Positions 5,109 to 32,474 of a stretch of DNA of 32,474 nt are shown one piece after another. The translations under genes were made by a program, and so were the position numbers. The DNA comes from a virus, in the IMG/VR virus record IMGVR_UViG_3300022665_000235, positions 1 through 32,474 of that record; one strand, 5' to 3'. The notes beneath the pieces are model-generated. The model was given only the letters and a program-made list of their open reading frames with translations, was not told where the DNA came from and did not search any database. Numbering within the stretch: the first letter of the stretch is position 1; each line of letters opens with the position of its first letter.

Positions 5109-6011
5109 ATGCCAATGTCACGCGGGGCCTTCCCGGTCATTACGGCCAGGGCGGGGCTCAAACGGGCGTACTTTTTGGAGTACAGTCAACACAAAATGCT
5201 GTACCCCACCGTCTTTAAAATGAATGACTCTACCCGGGGCTTCGAGGATTTCGTAAAGATCTCTGGGTTGGGACGCATGTCATTGCTGGGTGAGGGCGAG
5301 TCGATCTTCTATGATCAGGCCGTGGAGGGAACACGGATCAGTGTTGGTCATGCGATGTTCGGGCTTGGCTTCCAGGTATCTCGGGTCCTCATGGACGACG
5401 AGCAATACTCGATCATGTCTCGGATGTCTCAGGCCCTGGCTCGTTCGGTACAGTACGAGCAGGAAGTACGCGCTTGGGCAATCTTCAACGACGCTCAAGC
5501 AGGTGCTACCTTCACCGGCTTCGACGCACTAGCGCTCTTGAGCAACAGCCACACGCTGTTGAACAGTACGGCTACCCAGGACAACCGCATCCAAGCGGAT
5601 CTGTCGGTGAGTGCACTAGAAGCAGCGGTGGATCTGTTCGCCACGGTAGTTGACGAATCCGACATGAATCTTGCGATCGACCCCAAAGTCCTGGTGGTGC
5701 CAGCACAGAATCGCTGGCTAGCATCGACGCTCCTGGAGTCAGAGTATGACCCAGAGAGTGCCAACAATGCTATCAACCCTCTCAGGGATGTGGGACTCGG
5801 TTGGTTCGCAACCCCATTCATCACGGATACCGACTCGTGGTTTGTCCTGGCAGATAAAGGCGATCACGACCTGAATTTCTACTGGAGACTCAAGCCGGAA
5901 ACCGAGGACACGACAGACTTCGACACGAAGACCCTGAAGTTCAGTTCCATAATGAGATTCGCGGTTCTCTTTAACGAATTTCGAGGGGTTGTAGGGAGCA
6001 TGGGGGTATGA
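5109..6011 (+). CDS. Major capsid protein, HK97 fold
   Basis: The 300-aa length and C-terminal half match the phage major head subunit family: a VDLFATVVDESDMNLAIDPK segment, a KVLVVPAQNRWLASTLL strand-helix, NNAINPLRDVGLGW around residue 218, a TDTDSWFVLADK strand and the closing LKFSSIMRFAVLFNEFRGV. These make up the HK97-type shell subunit, closest in feel to Mu gpT-like major capsid proteins. No N-terminal delta domain or protease is seen, consistent with a separate scaffold. The start at 5109 has only a weak ribosome site (GAG eight bases upstream) for what should be the most abundant phage protein, so mRNA structure or position may compensate. Confidence 0.85.
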   Translation: MPMSRGAFPVITARAGLKRAYFLEYSQHKMLYPTVFKMNDSTRGFEDFVKISGLGRMSLLGEGESIFYDQAVEGTRISVGHAMFGLGFQVSRVLMDDEQYSIMSRMSQALARSVQYEQEVRAWAIFNDAQAGATFTGFDALALLSNSHTLLNSTATQDNRIQADLSVSALEAAVDLFATVVDESDMNLAIDPKVLVVPAQNRWLASTLLESEYDPESANNAINPLRDVGLGWFATPFITDTDSWFVLADKGDHDLNFYWRLKPETEDTTDFDTKTLKFSSIMRFAVLFNEFRGVVGSMGV

Positions 6012-6050: not shown

Positions 6051-6689
6051 ATGGGTTTGTCCTTCGGGGGGTTCACCGAGGCGGTGATGGCTGCGCTCGG
6101 GCACCCCCCTCCAGACCTGGTCTCCAAGGATGAGGTAGCTGGGGTTATCAACGATGCGTACTTCGAGGTGGCGAGGAAGTTTCGTCACCGGAGGATGCAG
6201 AGCGATACGACTATCTCTACTACCTCGGGGACGAATGAGTATGCCCTACCATCAGATTATTTCTGGATGCGAGTGGTGAGGGATGAGACCAACAACGAGA
6301 ACCTGTTGTCTAGAAGCCTAGCCTTCATCCAATCCAGGAACGATGGGATCAATTCCCAGCCCCTGTATTGGGCTACCGAGGACTACAACATTATCCTCGA
6401 CCCCACCCCTGACGATACGTACACGATTAGGCTCTGGTACTTCGCCCGACCCGCCCGGCTCGTGGTGGCCGTGGATAAGAGCATCTTTGAGGACGAGTGG
6501 GATGAGATCATCAAAAGAGGTGCGGAGGCCAAAGCCTTCTACCTCATGGGGGAATACGATCGACAGATCCATGCTAAGAATCTTCAGAGAAGTCTGATGA
6601 ACGACATCCAGGAGACCCAGGTGCTTGAGCAGGCCACCGGGGTACAGGTAGCTGGACCTCTTACGACTTTGAACGAGCCGAGGCTCTGA
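6051..6689 (+). CDS. Head-tail adaptor/connector protein
   Basis: The protein has 212 aa and is mostly helical, with a DEVAGVINDAYFEVARKFRH opening helix, a beta segment with EYALPSDYFWMRVV, and a C-terminal helix that binds neighbouring rings (GAEAKAFYLMGEYDRQIHAK). The N-terminal helix, ALPSDY strand and YWATEDYNIILDPTPDDTY turn are typical of the P22 gp4/T7 gp11-type adaptor family that sits under the portal. It follows the capsid gene directly, as in many podoviruses. A GGGAGG ribosome site lies near 6039. The stop overlaps the next start by one base. Confidence 0.7.
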   Translation: MGLSFGGFTEAVMAALGHPPPDLVSKDEVAGVINDAYFEVARKFRHRRMQSDTTISTTSGTNEYALPSDYFWMRVVRDETNNENLLSRSLAFIQSRNDGINSQPLYWATEDYNIILDPTPDDTYTIRLWYFARPARLVVAVDKSIFEDEWDEIIKRGAEAKAFYLMGEYDRQIHAKNLQRSLMNDIQETQVLEQATGVQVAGPLTTLNEPRL

Positions 6690-9253
6690 TGCCGACACTA
6701 GACGCTGAGGGAGGGATTGTCATAGATGTTGGGACGGCTGTCGCTCCGCTTCCTGGAGAGCAGATAGGCCAGCTACAAACCAAGCAGTACGAGACGCTGT
6801 CTTCCTCCGACATCGACACGCTCACTATCGGTACGGGGTCGAGCCCCTCGCTGACTATTCAGAGAGTGGTGGCGGGCTCCACTGTAGGCTCCTGGCAGTG
6901 GACGATGGACTCCTCTAACAACCTGATCCTAGATCGGGTTACCGGAACGGGTATCTACGTCTGGAATGAAGTGGGAGCTTCTGTAGACTTCCGGATGGAG
7001 GGCGATACCGACACGGAGGTGTTCTTCCTAGATGGGAGTGAGAACAGGGTTGGGTTCAGCACCACGACTCCGGCAACCCTGGTGGACATACAGGGAGCCC
7101 TGACAGTCAACGGCATCCTCTCGCAGGATGACGTAACGGACACTACCTCTACTACTACGGGCTCCATCCACACAGATGGGGGGATAGGAATAGCCAAAGC
7201 TCTTTGGGTTGGGACCACATCCAGGCTAGTAGGCAATGTCACCATAGACGCTGGACTTCTAGCTGCCGGGAATGACCAAGGAGCAATTGGAGCGAGCGGG
7301 ACAGCATTTAGCGATCTCTTCCTCGCCTCTGGTGCCGTTATCAACTTTGCTGCTGGGGATGTTACCATAACCCATGCGACCGACAAGCTGACCCTGGGTG
7401 GCACAACAGTTGAGTTCGACTTCGCTAACCACGAGATGACGAATGTAGACATCAACTCCGGAGCGATTGACGGGACTACGATAGGGGCGGCCTCGGTAGC
7501 CGCAGGATCGTTCTCAGCGGTTGTTGGAACCACCGGAACTTACTCTGGAATTCTCTCAGTTGACGATACTACGGACTCTACCTCCACAACCACTGGCTCT
7601 ATTCACACAGACGGTGGGCTTGGAGTCGTACTGGACACCTTCCTTGGTGCAGACGTTACCATCACTGATCAAGTGACCATTGGAGGTTCTATTGAAGCCG
7701 GTTCGATCTTCAACATTGAGCCTGGTGTAGCAGCGAGAGATATTCTCACCAGTGTTGGAACTGGATTGCACATTGAAGCAGACTCTCAGGCCATTAATGC
7801 CACTGGGAATGGTGAGACGGTTGCTATTGGAGCCCTGGCCTTTTTTGGCATTCCGACGTGGACCTCAGTTGGAACCACGTTCACTATCTCAGACGCTGCT
7901 ACCCTGTATGTTCAAGGGCCACCCGTTGGTTCAACGAATGTCACACACACCCGTGAATACGCCCTGTGGGTGGATGCTGGAGACACGAGGCTTGACGGCG
8001 ACCTGATTCTGGATGGAACCCCAGAACTATTTATCAATGATACCACCAACGCCAACATGACAATAGGACTGACGATTAACCAGGGGGCGAATGACGATGT
8101 TATTCTTGCCCTTAAGTCCAGTGATGTTGCACACGGTCTTACCAGTACCCTAGAAACCGACACATACTATCAAATCCAGAAGGCCAATGCCACATTAGGC
8201 GGCGCCTTTATTCGCACCTTGGGGGAAGATAGCGCCTCGCTACAGGTTGTATGGCAAACCCGCACCTCTGGTGGGCAAGCAGATACCACCAAGTCCACTC
8301 TTGGCCGTAGCCTCATTGAATTTGTAGCCGAGGAGCATGATGGGGCTGATAGCGCAACCAATGTCACGGCGGATGGGAATGTGTTCGGAGTTCGCGCCCT
8401 CGTTGGCGGTGCGTTTATCACTCGTTTTATTGTAGATGAAGACGGAGACACTTGGCAGAATGGCAGCATTTTTGTCAACGAGTCTGCCAATGCCAACATG
8501 ACAATAGGACTGACGATTAACCAAGCAGGAAATGAAGATCAATCATTCTGCATAAAAAACACTGATGTCGGTCATGGATTGACCACAATAACCGATATTG
8601 ATGTAGAGACAGACGATGTGCTAACCATTCGGAAAGCACAAACTTTTGGTGGTGCTATATTACAAGCCACGCATAACGACGCAAGTAATACTCCAACATT
8701 TCGCTTTCTTGCCTATGGTGGAACAGCAACAGCAGTTAAAACAACCTCCGGTCGGTCGTTGATAGAGTTTGATGCCTATGAACATAACGGCGCAAACGCG
8801 CTTGCGAATATTGCTGCTAACGGAAATGTGTTTGGAATAAGAGCGCAGGTAGGTGGAGCGATAGTAGCTCGCTTCATTGTAGATGAAGATGGAGACATTT
8901 TCACAGTCACCGTTGTGGATGTTACTGGTACAGGAAACGCTGTACCTTCAACAGCATTTGATGAATATGATGATGCTCAACTCATTCGAGCATTGGACGT
9001 GGCTCGTACTCCAGCAGCCCTCATTCGTTCGCAGTGGGATGAACATGTAAGGTATAACGAACAGTCACTAATTGATGCTGATATTCTTGGTGCTCCCATT
9101 GATGAAGGGGGCATGACCAACGTCACCCAACTCCAACGCCTCCACAACGGCGCGATCTGGCAGGCTTATGTCGAACGTCAAGAAATGAAAGAGGTAATTG
9201 CGAGACAACTTGGTCGTATTAAAAAGCTGGAGCGGCTGCTACCGGCAGCATAG
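6689..9253 (+). CDS. Long tail fibre/receptor-binding protein with repeated modules
   Basis: The protein has 854 aa, almost free of Cys and rich in Thr, Gly, Asp and Asn, in short beta repeats. A TSTTTGSIHTDGG motif recurs at about residues 153 and 297, spaced 144 residues. A longer module (ANMTIGLTINQ ... GRSLIEF ... NVFGIRAQVGGA ... RFIVDEDGD) occurs twice, spaced 147 residues, at about residues 450-590 and 595-740. The C-terminus has an ALIRSQWDEHVRY helix and a charged coiled-coil end (QEMKEVIARQLGRIKKLERL), suited to trimerisation. No S74 peptidase chaperone motif is visible. The likely role is host attachment. The last about 700 bases are visibly more AT-rich than the flanking genes, suggesting exchange of the receptor-binding part. 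Confidence 0.75.
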   Translation: MPTLDAEGGIVIDVGTAVAPLPGEQIGQLQTKQYETLSSSDIDTLTIGTGSSPSLTIQRVVAGSTVGSWQWTMDSSNNLILDRVTGTGIYVWNEVGASVDFRMEGDTDTEVFFLDGSENRVGFSTTTPATLVDIQGALTVNGILSQDDVTDTTSTTTGSIHTDGGIGIAKALWVGTTSRLVGNVTIDAGLLAAGNDQGAIGASGTAFSDLFLASGAVINFAAGDVTITHATDKLTLGGTTVEFDFANHEMTNVDINSGAIDGTTIGAASVAAGSFSAVVGTTGTYSGILSVDDTTDSTSTTTGSIHTDGGLGVVLDTFLGADVTITDQVTIGGSIEAGSIFNIEPGVAARDILTSVGTGLHIEADSQAINATGNGETVAIGALAFFGIPTWTSVGTTFTISDAATLYVQGPPVGSTNVTHTREYALWVDAGDTRLDGDLILDGTPELFINDTTNANMTIGLTINQGANDDVILALKSSDVAHGLTSTLETDTYYQIQKANATLGGAFIRTLGEDSASLQVVWQTRTSGGQADTTKSTLGRSLIEFVAEEHDGADSATNVTADGNVFGVRALVGGAFITRFIVDEDGDTWQNGSIFVNESANANMTIGLTINQAGNEDQSFCIKNTDVGHGLTTITDIDVETDDVLTIRKAQTFGGAILQATHNDASNTPTFRFLAYGGTATAVKTTSGRSLIEFDAYEHNGANALANIAANGNVFGIRAQVGGAIVARFIVDEDGDIFTVTVVDVTGTGNAVPSTAFDEYDDAQLIRALDVARTPAALIRSQWDEHVRYNEQSLIDADILGAPIDEGGMTNVTQLQRLHNGAIWQAYVERQEMKEVIARQLGRIKKLERLLPAA
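8024..8905 (+). repeat. Duplicated 147-codon module inside the tail fibre gene
   Basis: Two consecutive modules, about 8024-8464 and 8465-8905, align over their whole length at protein level. They share an identical 32-bp DNA stretch (8051-8082 and 8492-8523) exactly 441 bp apart. The rest has diverged, and the second module is richer in A/T. The identical DNA block within diverged modules suggests either recent gene conversion or a recombination anchor. Confidence 0.8.
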
Positions 9254-9261
9254 GAGAAACG

Positions 9262-9510
9262 ATGGCATTGAAAAAGATTCGCCGGACCAAACCACTGCTG
9301 GTTCCTGTTGCAATCAACTACACGACAAAGACGTTCGTGGGATTTAGTGTGATGACGGATGACCAGAACAACGTGACAATCACCGCTCACTGGTTAATCC
9401 CCCGGGATGATGGGACGATGGATAGGGCTACAACCGGGGTCGATGCTGCACCCATCCGTGCTATCACCGGCTTCAACGCAGTGGTAGATGCTATAGTAGC
9501 AGCCAGTTAA
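9262..9510 (+). CDS. Hypothetical protein after tail fibre (82 aa)
   Basis: The product is 82 aa, with a basic N-terminus (MALKKIRRTKPLLVPVAI) and beta-type segments (TTKTFVGFSVMTDDQNNVTI), ending in AVVDAIVAAS. The start follows a TAGGAG ribosome site, eight bases after the fibre stop. A small protein directly after a fibre gene could be a fibre assembly helper or a minor tail component, but nothing in the sequence proves this. It is the last gene before the structured RNA region at 9571. Confidence 0.6.
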   Translation: MALKKIRRTKPLLVPVAINYTTKTFVGFSVMTDDQNNVTITAHWLIPRDDGTMDRATTGVDAAPIRAITGFNAVVDAIVAAS

Positions 9511-9570
9511 TAGGAGGTGGACACCGAAATATTTAGTCGTATTCTGTATATGGGTCTCTGACACCGTCTC

Positions 9571-9872
9571 ACCCCGTGGCTGTGTGCCTGTTCCGCCACC
9601 AAGACGGGAAGGAATTCAGGTTCGAGGAAACTCAAATGGCTGACTGCACCTCTGAAAGCAGCGGGCTCGGCGTATAGGGGACCGAGCAGCCCCGATGAGT
9701 CTTGGGGGAAGGAAAAGAAAGTCCCGCCGGGCCCTGCTCATCACCCGGCGGGAAGTGGAACCTGAATTCGGCTGACTACAATCTCCAGGTGGTGGCAATA
9801 TGGCTAACTCGGTGCCGTTTGTCCACCCTCCCGGTTCTTCCCCTTCCCCAAGGGGTTCCGACCCGGTGTGTC
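9571..9872 (+). ncRNA. Structured RNA, copy A (about 300 nt, unassigned class)
   Basis: No credible gene covers 9511-9905. The region holds nested complementary segments. The closing helix is a perfect 12 bp (9612-9623 with 9758-9769). Inside it are GAG-GAAA-CTC (9624-9633), CTGC/GCAG (9644-9647/9658-9661), GCTCGG/CCGAGC (9665-9670/9682-9687), CCCC/GGGG (9690-9693/9704-9707) and a 10-bp hairpin (9722-9731/9744-9753). The loop GATGAG (9694-9699) is complementary to CTCATC (9737-9742) in the 10-bp hairpin loop, giving a kissing or pseudoknot contact. A 5' hairpin GTGGC/GCCAC (9576-9580/9595-9599) and a 3' hairpin GGTGG/CCACC (9788-9792/9823-9827, inner GGCA/TGCC) flank it. A homologous copy with compensatory changes lies at 23559-23889 on the other strand. 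The RNA ends 33 nt before the next start codon. I do not recognise the class; it could be a cis-acting leader, an antitermination element or an independent phage RNA. Confidence 0.75.
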
Positions 9873-9905: not shown

Positions 9906-10175
9906 ATGCGTAAGACGCAGACGAAGCCCAGCCGGATATCGAAGAAAGAGTCTGATCTAGATATCCTTCTGACGAAGGAGCAGGTAGCGCAGATCCAGTC
10001 ATTACAGGCTCAGATCAACGAAGCTCAGAACCGGCAGGGACTTTATATCAAGGCTATCCTGGATAGTGTAGGGATTGAAGGTCAGGTACGGATCAAAGGG
10101 CCTATCAAACGTGGAAACAAGTTCTACCTCGAAGTGACCAAGATCACTAACCCAAAGACGAACGGGGAAGTATGA
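9906..10175 (+). CDS. Hypothetical protein between structured RNA and holin (89 aa)
   Basis: The frame is open further upstream, but the ATG at 9906 has a strong AGGAGG ribosome site five bases before it, and upstream codons lie in the structured RNA. The 89-aa product is basic at the N-terminus (MRKTQTKPSRISKKE), has a helical middle with heptad-like spacing (VAQIQSLQAQINEAQNRQGL) and ends in a small beta unit (RIKGPIKRGNKFYLEVTKI). Its stop overlaps the holin start (ATGA), so both are co-translated, which hints at a lysis- or particle-related role. Function unknown. The RNA leader may control it and the genes behind it. Confidence 0.7.
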   Translation: MRKTQTKPSRISKKESDLDILLTKEQVAQIQSLQAQINEAQNRQGLYIKAILDSVGIEGQVRIKGPIKRGNKFYLEVTKITNPKTNGEV

Positions 10176-10642
10176 GTATTTTCTCCATTCTCGGGGGACC
10201 TATTAAAAGCTTAGTAGATTCCATCGGAGGGATCATAGACAATGTCCATACATCCGAAGAAGAAAAGCTCGAAGCCAAAGCGAAGCTCAAAGCACTCGAA
10301 ACGGAAGCAACGGCACAAGTCCTCTCACACGCCGAAAGCCTCTTCAAGACCAAAGGCAGCGTACTCATAGCCGAGCTACAACAGGGAGATGCCTACACCA
10401 AACGGGCACGCCCTACCGTGGTCTATGGTGGACTACTGATCCTGGCCGTCAACCACATCATTCTACCCTGGATAGCATTCTTCGCCGGTATGGAGATCCC
10501 CAAGATCGAGATCCCAGCAGTGTTCTGGGGTGGTTGGAGTGGAATCGTGATGACCTGGAGTATCGGACGCTCGTTTGAGAAGCGTGGTGTGCAGAACAAA
10601 GCCGTTAGTGCTATCACCGGAAGCATCTTCGGTGCCAACTAA
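10172..10642 (+). CDS. Holin of the 3TM/gene-transfer-agent type
   Basis: The protein has 156 aa. A helical, charged N-terminal region (residues 25-60) is followed by RARPTVVYG near residue 78 and hydrophobic segments at about 82-104 and 114-133 (IPAVFWGGWSGIVMTWSIGR), ending in SFEKRG. A charged N-terminal helix, the KRARP(T/W) entry and a GW-rich second membrane segment are the signature of the 3TM holin superfamily first described in gene transfer agents. It would form inner-membrane holes at lysis. No endolysin gene is adjacent; the DUF5675 protein in the leftward arm might supply wall cleavage. Confidence 0.75.
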   Translation: MSIFSILGGPIKSLVDSIGGIIDNVHTSEEEKLEAKAKLKALETEATAQVLSHAESLFKTKGSVLIAELQQGDAYTKRARPTVVYGGLLILAVNHIILPWIAFFAGMEIPKIEIPAVFWGGWSGIVMTWSIGRSFEKRGVQNKAVSAITGSIFGAN

Positions 10643-22333: not shown

Positions 22334-22449
22334 TTCTTACGCCTCGCTTCAGCAGCGTCCATGACCCGTCCAACGTGCCGTCCTAGTGCAGAGTCAAAGA
22401 TGAGCCACTTCATACCGGCGACGAGCCAGTACAGGGGACGCCACTTCAT
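22330..22449 (-). CDS. 39-aa coupled microprotein
   Basis: This very short frame is tied into the operon at both ends. Its ATG overlaps the preceding TGA (ATGA at 22446-22449), and its TGA overlaps the GTG of rusA. The peptide begins MKWRPLYWLVAGMKWLIF, which is hydrophobic and Trp-rich, and ends basic (EAARRKK-like). It may lie along a membrane or bind the neighbouring resolvase. The tight coupling on both sides is the main evidence that it is translated. Confidence 0.6.
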   Translation of the reverse strand: MKWRPLYWLVAGMKWLIFDSALGRHVGRVMDAAEARRKK

Positions 22450-22916: not shown

Positions 22917-23179
22917 CTCCGAATAGCCCAAAGACCGCGATGCCAGCGGTGATTCCAGCAGTACCGTGATCGTTTGAATGGCGGACCTCCGCAGGGAGCG
23001 AAGAGGCCGTTGCTAAACCGCCTCGCTGCTCGGCACCCCCCACCGTGGAGGTGACGTTCGACCCATACTGGGCTGACCCCGCCTACACGACTGAGCAAGT
23101 ATTCCCGTGTGACACGGTAGGGCTCGGGCACGTCCTTCCAGTTCACCATCGGTTCTCTCTTCGGACCGTGTTTCCTCAT
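22859..23179 (-). CDS. Hypothetical Cys/His/Trp-rich protein (106 aa)
   Basis: The gene is ATGA-coupled to the one before it, with GGAG six bases ahead of the ATG. The 106-aa product has an N-terminal VNWKDVPEPYRVTREYLLSR helix region that may bind DNA, then a cluster of Gly, Cys and His (HLHGGGC, CGGPP, YCWNHRWHRG) suggesting a metal site. The end is basic and aromatic (WIKDYRRPYLASLPLPW). Family unknown. Its place between two replication-type genes suggests replication or regulation. Confidence 0.55.
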   Translation of the reverse strand: MRKHGPKREPMVNWKDVPEPYRVTREYLLSRVGGVSPVWVERHLHGGGCRAARRFSNGLFAPCGGPPFKRSRYCWNHRWHRGLWAIRRWIKDYRRPYLASLPLPWQ

Positions 23180-23526
23180 TTCTGCTCCTGCAGCTGACGC
23201 CGGGCTTGATCGAACGGGGTCTCTGTGGACCAGTCTTCTTCCCAGCCACCACCGTCTCCGAGGAAGGTTGCGGCCTGCATCACAAACACCGACCCGTTTC
23301 CATGATGGAAGCCACAGTAACGGCGGTACTCATTTGCCTTCTCGATAAGCAGGTCGGAGGTGACGCCCTTCTGGTGGATGAGTCGCCCGAAACACTTCCG
23401 CGCCTGGGGCCAACGCTGACCTCCTCGCCGCAACGGATATACTTGCTGGAACCGCTGAAAGAGGATGTCGGTAGCAGTCAGTCTTTCTTTCGTTTCCGTC
23501 TCTTTACCACAGTGAGGGCACTTCAT
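23176..23526 (-). CDS. Replication-type protein with N-terminal zinc ribbon half-site
   Basis: The protein has 116 aa. CPHC at residues 3-6 starts it. The body is a helical domain with LFQRFQQVYPLRRGG, RWPQARKCFGRLIHQKG and a closing AATFLGDGGGWEEDW. The pattern F-x-x-F-x-x-x-YP, then an A-x-K/R helix, then a T-x-L-x-x-x-x-W end is common in C-terminal domains of phage replication-initiation proteins. It is the first gene after structured RNA copy B, whose end lies 32 nt upstream; a TAGGAG site precedes the ATG by nine bases. Levels of this protein are therefore a plausible target of the RNA. Confidence 0.55.
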   Translation of the reverse strand: MKCPHCGKETETKERLTATDILFQRFQQVYPLRRGGQRWPQARKCFGRLIHQKGVTSDLLIEKANEYRRYCGFHHGNGSVFVMQAATFLGDGGGWEEDWSTETPFDQARRQLQEQK

Positions 23527-23558: not shown

Positions 23559-23889
23559 ACAGACCGGGGGGAACCCCTTTGGGGAAGGGAGAGAATGGAC
23601 AAGAGGGGTGAAGCAGTGCATATTACCCTCGCCTGTGGAATTGTAAGCGCCCGACTTCCTTCCGGGTCCTTTTTCAGATTGATTCTCAGGTCCCCAGCCC
23701 TGCCGGTGACGAGCAACGATCCGGCGGGGCTCCCTCTTTCCTTCCCCCAAAGCTCGTCGGGGCTGCTCGGTTCCTAAGCCGAGCCCGCTGCTTTCCGGAG
23801 TGCAGACAGCCCATTGAGTATCTCCGACCTGAGTATCCTTCCCATTTTTCGTGGTGGTTCACAGGAACGGCCACAAGGATCACGGGGTA
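23559..23889 (-). ncRNA. Structured RNA, copy B (about 330 nt, unassigned class)
   Basis: This is the homologue of the RNA at 9571-9872, on the opposite strand, in a gene-free stretch (23527-24000). Read on the - strand it keeps the order of elements: ACCCCGTG, a GTGG/CCAC hairpin, GGGAAGGA, closing helix CTCAGGTC/GACCTGAG (+ positions 23826-23833 and 23685-23692), a GAG-ATA-CTC hairpin, CTGC/GCAG with a GAAA-type loop, GCTCGG/CCGAGC, CCCC/GGGG, a GCCGG/CCGGC hairpin, an AATATG-loop hairpin and the end CCCTTCCCCAAAGGGGTTCC. The loop contact is GACGAG (23753-23758) with CTCGTC (23708-23713); copy A has GATGAG with CTCATC, a compensatory change. Two closing-helix pairs also change from U-A to C-G. 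No open frame explains the conservation. Confidence 0.75.
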
Positions 23890-23934
23890 GGAAACCTTTC
23901 CTAGTATGCCCTCAAAAAATTCTGCCGTCCAGTC

Positions 23935-23981
23935 TTGCAAAATGCGAGACTTAGAACTCCTAAGTATTGCAAAATGCAAGA
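23935..23981 (-). promoter_or_regulatory. Operator-like array upstream of RNA copy B
   Basis: Two 15-bp direct repeats, TTGCAAAATGCRAGA, lie at 23935-23949 and 23967-23981, 32 bp apart (about three helical turns). Between them is an inverted repeat, ACTTAG (23949-23954) and CTAAGT (23960-23965). Part of each repeat is itself dyadic (TTGCA/TGCAA). The arrangement suits a DNA-binding protein acting on a promoter that makes RNA B and the replication genes. I could not assign clear -35/-10 boxes. The rest of 23890-24000 shows a GTGTA/TACAC inverted repeat at 23982-24000. Confidence 0.45.
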
Positions 23982-24000
23982 GTGTAAAGATGTTATACAC

Positions 24001-24225
24001 CTACTTCCTGAATCCTTTGACTGTCCAGATACCGAGCCAGGCGAGCCCCCGCACAGTGAAGGTACCACCGACCCAGCCGACTACAGCACCTGTCAGCCAC
24101 ACCAACACTTCGTACTCGAACCACCCATAGCGTACGGTGTTCACGATGAAGAAGACTGTCCAGGCGACTGTGATACCACCACCGATAACGAGGCTCAGAC
24201 GTCTGATACCTTCGGGTGTCTTCAT
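24001..24225 (-). CDS. Small two-transmembrane protein (74 aa)
   Basis: The product is 74 aa with two hydrophobic helices, about residues 10-31 (LSLVIGGGITVAWTVFFIV) and 40-58 (VLVWLTGAVVGWVGGTFTV). They are joined by a short NTVRYGWFEYE loop, and the ends are basic. It could be an inner-membrane protein made early, for example an antiholin, superinfection or host-takeover factor. None of these can be shown. It starts about 30 nt after the dyad at 24257-24280, which may control it, and is followed by the operator array. Confidence 0.6.
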   Translation of the reverse strand: MKTPEGIRRLSLVIGGGITVAWTVFFIVNTVRYGWFEYEVLVWLTGAVVGWVGGTFTVRGLAWLGIWTVKGFRK

Positions 24226-24256: not shown

Positions 24257-24280
24257 GGGACATATATTAACCTATGTCCC
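24257..24280 (-). promoter_or_regulatory. 24-bp dyad, site 1 (operator or RNA hairpin)
   Basis: GGGACATA (24257-24264), spacer TATTAACC, then TATGTCCC (24273-24280), a perfect 8-bp dyad. It overlaps the stop codon of the HNH gene and precedes the two-TM gene. It matches the site at 26847-26870 in 20 of 24 positions, including the whole ATTAACC core of the spacer, and one arm pair changes C-G to T-A in both halves. Confidence 0.55.
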
Positions 24281-31914: not shown

Positions 31915-32077
31915 GAAATAGTCCTTTCTCCCGACCATGCTCGAAGGCTTCGTCGGTCAGCCGTCCTTCGCGGCAGACAGCGCACTCGTCATGCTCCTCG
32001 CCGTTGTTGTACTGGCCTTCCAGTAAGGTGCCGCACTTACAACAAGGCTTGGTTTCTCCGAGATAGTAGGTGGTCAT
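31907..32077 (-). CDS. 56-aa zinc-ribbon protein at the head of the leftward operon
   Basis: The start is the ATG at 32077 with a GGGGCGGGGA element before it and an ATGA overlap with the 25-aa frame. The product has 56 aa and two Cys pairs, CCKC (residues 13-16) and CAVC (about 33-36), with a GEEHDE loop, forming a small zinc ribbon. The C-terminal tail (EAFEHGREKGLFRD) is charged. Being second in the operon, it is probably made very early. Its start codon is exactly the outer edge of the 125-bp inverted repeat. Confidence 0.6.
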   Translation of the reverse strand: MTTYYLGETKPCCKCGTLLEGQYNNGEEHDECAVCREGRLTDEAFEHGREKGLFRD

Positions 32078-32151
32078 TTCCCCGCCCCCTGGATTAGGTA
32101 AACCTGTTGACAGGTCATACACCCACATTCGAATTCGTGTGTCACAGTCAT
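32074..32151 (-). CDS. 25-aa leader microprotein
   Basis: The ATG at 32151 follows GAGGGA by seven bases. The 25-codon frame (MTVTHEFECGCMTCQQVYLI at its start) has three Cys (C-x-C-x-x-C) and ends at a TGA that overlaps the next ATG (ATGA). The ribosome site and coupling favour translation; it may be a leader peptide or a tiny metal-binding protein. The complete frame is also present in the opposite direction in the second arm of the inverted repeat. Confidence 0.5.
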   Translation of the reverse strand: MTVTHEFECGCMTCQQVYLIQGAGK

Positions 32152-32199
32152 GGCGTATTCCCTCACTTTGTGGGTCTGTACACCCTACAACAACCTGCA
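32075..32199. repeat. Inverted repeat, arm 1 (125 bp)
   Basis: This arm is the exact reverse complement of 32350-32474, the last 125 bases of the window, with no mismatch. It carries the ribosome site and the whole 25-aa frame of the leftward operon except the first base of its stop overlap. Next base pairs inward (32200/32349) do not match. Confidence 0.95.
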
Positions 32200-32397
32200 C
32201 CCTACAACAACCTGCATGAATCGTACCGCAACTGCAAGCTCACTTCAGCAACACCCTCCCTCTCGCCCCCGTATTCCCTTGGGTTAGCCCGTATACACCG
32301 TAACTATTAAGGACTTAATACCTTAGGATACCACACCAGTATAGGATTCTGCAGGTTGTTGTAGGGTGTACAGACCCACAAAGTGAGGGAATACGCC
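32152..32397. promoter_or_regulatory. Leader/promoter region between the inverted arms
   Basis: The centre (32200-32349) contains no gene. It holds a perfect dyad, ATTAAG-GA-CTTAAT (32306-32319), AT-rich DNA on either side with TATA-like boxes on both strands (TATACA at 32292, TATAGG at 32341), and the two-copy 17-bp repeat. It is the only place upstream of the leftward operon where a promoter could be in this window. I could not choose definite -35/-10 boxes. Confidence 0.45.
32181..32214. repeat. Two tandem 17-bp repeats, third copy in arm 2
   Basis: CACCCTACAACAACCTG occurs twice in a row (32181-32197, 32198-32214), and once inverted at 32352-32368. Repeats of this length just upstream of an early operon can be operator or iteron sites. 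Only the first tandem copy belongs to the mirrored arm. Confidence 0.8.
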
Positions 32398-32474
32398 ATG
32401 ACTGTGACACACGAATTCGAATGTGGGTGTATGACCTGTCAACAGGTTTACCTAATCCAGGGGGCGGGGAAATG
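32350..32474. repeat. Inverted repeat, arm 2 (125 bp), at the window end
   Basis: Reverse complement of 32075-32199. Read on the + strand it contains a ribosome site and the 25-aa frame from its ATG at 32398, running off the window edge at the last codon. The window stops exactly at the position that mirrors the ATG of the 56-aa gene. Confidence 0.95.

Follow-up and report, generated by a model that had tools for sequence, protein, structure and literature searches.

Our analysis indicates that this uncultured phage carries two diverged copies of one conserved, folded element, which, judged from its sequence, is a credible and well-defined orphan candidate RNA that falls short of a demonstrated class, and which we tentatively interpret as a control RNA that acts in cis, as a leader or between cistrons, on the two operons that follow it. 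The window (the whole stretch of DNA analysed, an entire IMG/VR virus record of 32,474 bases) comprises a plus-strand arm at ~1-21.8 kb, with a portal fragment and head protein, fibre, holin and tail genes, and a minus-strand arm at ~32-22.4 kb, with Gam-like, HNH, DnaD-like and other genes; the genome is probably incomplete because the record starts inside the portal gene. At the very end of the record, 32075-32199 and 32350-32474 form a perfect 125-bp inverted repeat, whose appearance suggests a terminal hairpin or an artefact of fold-back assembly. Self-blastn and bounded segment alignment identify two homologous versions of one element of ~300 nt (302-330 nt):

9571-9872, plus strand: copy A, in the structural/lysis arm, between ORF 9262-9510 and ORF 9906-10175
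23559-23888, minus strand: copy B, in the replication-side arm, between ORF 24001-24225 and ORF 23176-23526

Self-blastn pairs 9606-9765 with 23843-23686 (77.9%, E 9e-26) and 9835-9871 with 23595-23559, and a covariance model built from copy A alone scores copy B at 114 bits (E 2e-32). When A was compared with B against dinucleotide shuffles, the core alignment scored 166 (null 22.7 +/- 3.7) and the 3' domain alignment 56 (null 18.9 +/- 3.3), the likeness of the 5' domains was marginal (p=0.015), and both flanks were at chance level (5' flank p=0.63, 3' flank p=0.29). Because the domains beat the shuffles and the flanks do not, both ends of the element are sharp. The two aligned gene-free stretches described in the earlier note are thus located correctly to within one base, B running from 23888 to 23559, and its placement of one copy per arm also holds, with A on the plus and B on the minus strand, each along the coding strand of its own arm. 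Neither self-blastn nor the covariance model detects a third copy in the record.

A protein-coding explanation can be ruled out for either strand, in agreement with the initial claim that no conserved protein is encoded. Stops occur in all six frames and none shows purifying selection (in the ungapped core, 0/6 frames are stop-free or have pN well below pS), the indels between A and B are off phase, and mismatches are spread evenly over codon positions.

A conserved fold is seen in a central 164-nt core, in which seven helices occur in the same order in both copies, with 40 pairs and 96.3% of pair cells paired across A and B; the proposal of at least seven shared helices therefore holds for this core. 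Sliding the alignment by 1-3 columns reduced the paired cells to 28-50%, a contrast that is partly built in since the structure was derived from A. RNAalifold on the hand alignment gave -52.2 kcal/mol, compared with -33.1 +/- 4.1 in 300 column shuffles, none of which (0/300) was as low, and the consensus energy lies 4.6 SD below the shuffles. Separate MFE predictions for the A and B cores give one plan, in which the P2 helix closes the core around the P3b, P4 and P5 hairpins:

9604-9766, plus strand: structured core of A, seven nested helices and a loop-loop contact
23685-23845, minus strand: structured core of B, the counterpart of the A core
9615-9623, plus strand: P2 5' strand, UUCAGGUUC, pairs with 9758-9766 and closes the core (in B, CUCAGGUC/GACCUGAG; separate MFEs of A and B)
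9758-9766, plus strand: P2 3' strand, GAACCUGAA
9666-9686, plus strand: P3b hairpin, CUCGG/CCGAG, with an invariant stem and a variable loop that has a 3-nt deletion in B
9690-9707, plus strand: P4 hairpin, CCCCGA/UUGGGG, with loop 9696-9701 UGAGUC (in B, CGAGCU; separate MFEs of A and B)
9722-9753, plus strand: P5 hairpin, UCCCGCCGGG/CCCGGCGGGA, with GCUCA (9736-9740) in its loop, the complement of 9696-9700 in the P4 loop

The P4 and P5 loops can form a contact that reads UGAGU/GCUCA in A and CGAGC/GCUCG in B, and this is the longest shared helix with compensatory change (U-A to C-G plus U-G to C-G). Further compensations independent of register shifts are found in P2 (U-A to C-G) and, about once, at the foot of P5. 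The fit counts 8 compensations, a number that register shifts in P2 and P5 make too high; judged soberly, the two sequences show about 3-4. Most core pairs are identical in A and B, and four helices show no variation at all. RNAalifold prefers a different nested arrangement, in which ~9694-9710 pairs with the P5 region; this arrangement rivals P4/P5 and shares the GAUGAG/CUCAUC helix with it. Its helix, formed within 9694-9740 by GAUGAGUCUUGG and CCGGG..GCUCAUC, has a compensatory change of its own, and a two-state RNA is possible according to these predictions. The antisense strand of the core folds about as well as the sense strand, and for this reason the strand was assigned from gene direction and G-U pairs.

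On either side of the core, sequence conservation between the copies extends into the 5' and 3' domains. Three further features of the element stand out:

9606-9613, plus strand: invariant purine motif, GGGAAGGA, with a second copy, GGGGGAAGGAAA, at 9704-9715
9777-9802, plus strand: 3'-domain motif, UACAAU-N-CAGG-N-AAUAUG (in B, 23645-23619)
9840-9855, plus strand: 3' hairpin, CCCCUU(CCCC)AAGGGG, in separate MFEs of both copies, with no T run after it

Both copies of the purine motif are complementary to CCUUCCC(C) at the 3' end, and the 3'-domain motif matches twice in the window and never in 100 shuffles. The consensus fold of the 3' domain is no better than chance (p=0.25), and the full-length MFEs of the A and B elements are unremarkable (z -1.5 and +0.4). 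The absence of a T run excludes the 3' hairpin as an intrinsic terminator.

We favour control in cis because each copy follows the coding strand of its arm, leaves 32-33 nt to a start codon that has a good SD, has no terminator in between, and precedes a gene that is unrelated to the one after the other copy:

9906-10175, plus strand: gene after A, 89 aa, of no family, start codon 33 nt past the element, SD AGGAGG
23176-23526, minus strand: gene after B, 116 aa, DnaD/replication-initiation-like, start codon 32 nt past the element, SD AGGAG

No intrinsic terminator was found at either copy or before the next start codon. The like folds of the two cores, with their compensatory changes, also speak for action in cis, as do a promoter-like pair just upstream of A (TGGACA-N16-TATTCT, 9518-9545, 9/12) and the mostly paired state of the SD in the predicted full-length folds. 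In A, the SD is predicted to pair with CCUCC at ~9827-9831 inside the element (P about 0.99), and in B with UCUCU at the element end and spacer start (P about 0.5-0.76). Against this stands that the SD pairing is no better than in shuffles and draws on different segments of the two copies, so that SD sequestration, although predicted in both copies, is neither significant nor homologous and was rejected as a conserved device. Likewise, the promoter-like pair is a mere consensus match, and a promoter common to both copies is unsupported, the 5' flanks being non-homologous. It should also be considered that tight gene packing alone can place any intergenic element near a start codon, that 300 nt is large for a simple leader, that the downstream genes are unrelated, that only two sequences are at hand, and that folding does not indicate the strand of the RNA. 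Known cis-acting leader RNAs (riboswitch-like or autoregulatory) are similarly folded, non-coding and directly upstream of a gene with an SD; in contrast to these, our element matches no known family and is followed by two unrelated genes.

If control in cis is correct, a structured element that was copied once within the phage would act on the transcript that carries it, directly upstream of one operon per arm (9906 onward, late; 23526 onward, replication). The folded core may receive one common signal, for instance from RNA polymerase, from the ribosome or from a protein of phage or host origin, and the 3' domain together with the 32-33-nt spacer may then govern ribosome access to the next SD or polymerase passage, with the outcome that the replication gene would be coordinated with the lysis/tail operon. 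We infer transcription of the sense strand, action in cis and control at the level of translation or transcription; control of SD access would provide a concrete mechanism, one that the predicted folds support weakly.

Several further features of these regions were noted. Upstream of B, 23930-23984 contains a direct repeat, GCATTTTGCAA, and a palindrome, ACTTAG-GAGTT-CTAAGT, which are operator-like. At 24257-24280 (minus strand), a hairpin resembling a terminator (GGGACATA..TATGTCCC), whose tail contains T residues, lies at the end of the HNH-like ORF and upstream of ORF 24001-24225; about one such terminator-like site is expected by chance. The holin gene at 10172-10642 encodes a GTA_holin_3TM protein (PF11351) related to Salinibacter phage holins.

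The main rival to a cis-acting leader, and one nearly as likely, is a trans-acting phage RNA (an sRNA, protein-binding scaffold, decoy or particle RNA) that would be transcribed from B early and from A late and processed out of the operon transcripts, the two loci serving two times of infection. A simple leader would not usually have so complex a core, with its loop-loop contact, or such long conserved motifs left unpaired (GGGAAGGA, UACAAU, AAUAUG), and the sharp bounds of the element and the unrelated genes downstream would also suit such an RNA; however, no terminator or shared promoter bounds the element, and it has no homologue or known partner. Among large phage RNAs, the earlier note had drawn an analogy with GOLLD and ROOL, which are large non-coding RNAs of phages whose structures include loop-loop contacts (PMC12286853). 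The likeness ends with size and loop contacts in general terms, and we consider the analogy unsupported: the element matches neither Rfam covariance model, it is smaller than GOLLD members, which often exceed 800 nt, and duplication within one phage is not part of the definition of either family. Moreover, GOLLD and ROOL are often, though not strictly, found near tRNA islands, whereas ARAGORN detects no tRNA or tmRNA in the 32.5-kb record, which may be incomplete.

We consider it quite unlikely that the element acts by put-like processive antitermination, in which the nascent RNA would bind RNA polymerase and let it pass the terminators further along each arm. To promote such read-through, put RNA works through the beta' zinc-binding domain. 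The comparison, which was raised at the outset, gains from the two-arm layout, since HK022 putL and putR are two related structured RNAs, one per opposing transcript and on the coding strand (PMC9378689), a likeness that here comes from gene layout only, and about 12 kb of lysis and tail genes follow A. It fails on size and plan, as a put RNA measures about 70 nt, has two stem-loops and lies near an early promoter (PMC9378689), whereas the present element is ~302-330 nt, with a core of seven helices, and has A far inside the late arm and B near the end of its arm. In addition, only about 1.1 kb of arm remains beyond B (ORFs end at 22446), scans of stretches beyond A and B detected no terminators, and there is no sequence or Rfam match between put and the element. 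Least probable in our view is a mobile or DNA-level element (for example a small insertion, or a site of recombination or replication) whose folding would take place in single-stranded DNA and which would not act as RNA. Two sharply bounded copies in inverted orientation with unrelated flanks, and an antisense strand that folds as well as the sense strand, would be compatible with this; against it, the sequence shows neither a target-site duplication nor a terminal repeat shared by the two copies, the genome holds no further copies, and the G-U pairs in P4 and in the loop-loop helix favour a sense-strand RNA.

Searches for relatives leave the element family known from two sequences in one virus. 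The Rfam scan that had been proposed as a check gave no match at the gathering threshold (Rfam 15) and noise only up to E=10. Blastn against annotated phages (both copies) and plasmids (copy A only) returned nothing useful. Pattern scans of 2.9 million IMG/VR viral contigs and GTDB contigs gave matches that all lacked the rest of the element; the IMG/VR patterns, exact and gapped, were GAAAGCAGCGGGCTCGG, GAAAGCAGCGGG..CAGCCCCGA, CCCCGA..GGGGAAGGAAA and TACAAT..CAGG..GG-AATATG. The covariance model R2 found no homologue in about 1,900 bacterial genomes from seven phyla, a weak negative; its lone match (L078, E=7e-4) was rejected as chance-level, since a search of so many genomes is expected to yield one. 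L015 (75%) and L048 (63%), the nearest viruses by head protein identity, have no copy in their available sequence, which omits the matching places; in L015 the gene content differs after the fibre gene and the contig ends soon after. The element is also absent from the available sequence of the holin and head-protein relatives examined. The 854-aa fibre-like ORF at 6689-9253 has internal repeats about 435-447 bp apart, and L015 carries a different, shorter protein in its place. The head protein (5109-6011) is a distant relative of a protein of a Methanomicrobiales virus (BK063670).

Finally, of the suggestion that the element represents a new RNA class, the conserved, non-coding, folded nature and the lack of an Rfam match stand, and a spread over many phages does not, the searches being empty; a new RNA is therefore credible for this phage, and a widespread class unproven. 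We regard it as rather doubtful that the element defines a new class of phage RNA in which a loop-loop contact locks a compact core of several helices and two diverged copies serve as a common switch coupling replication to lysis/tail expression. The two diverged copies in one genome, one per arm, nevertheless provide a natural internal control. If transcribed and functional, the element would count as a structured phage RNA of fairly large size and outside the known classes, and the same complex RNA would operate in two phage operons, as in HK022 with its much smaller put.
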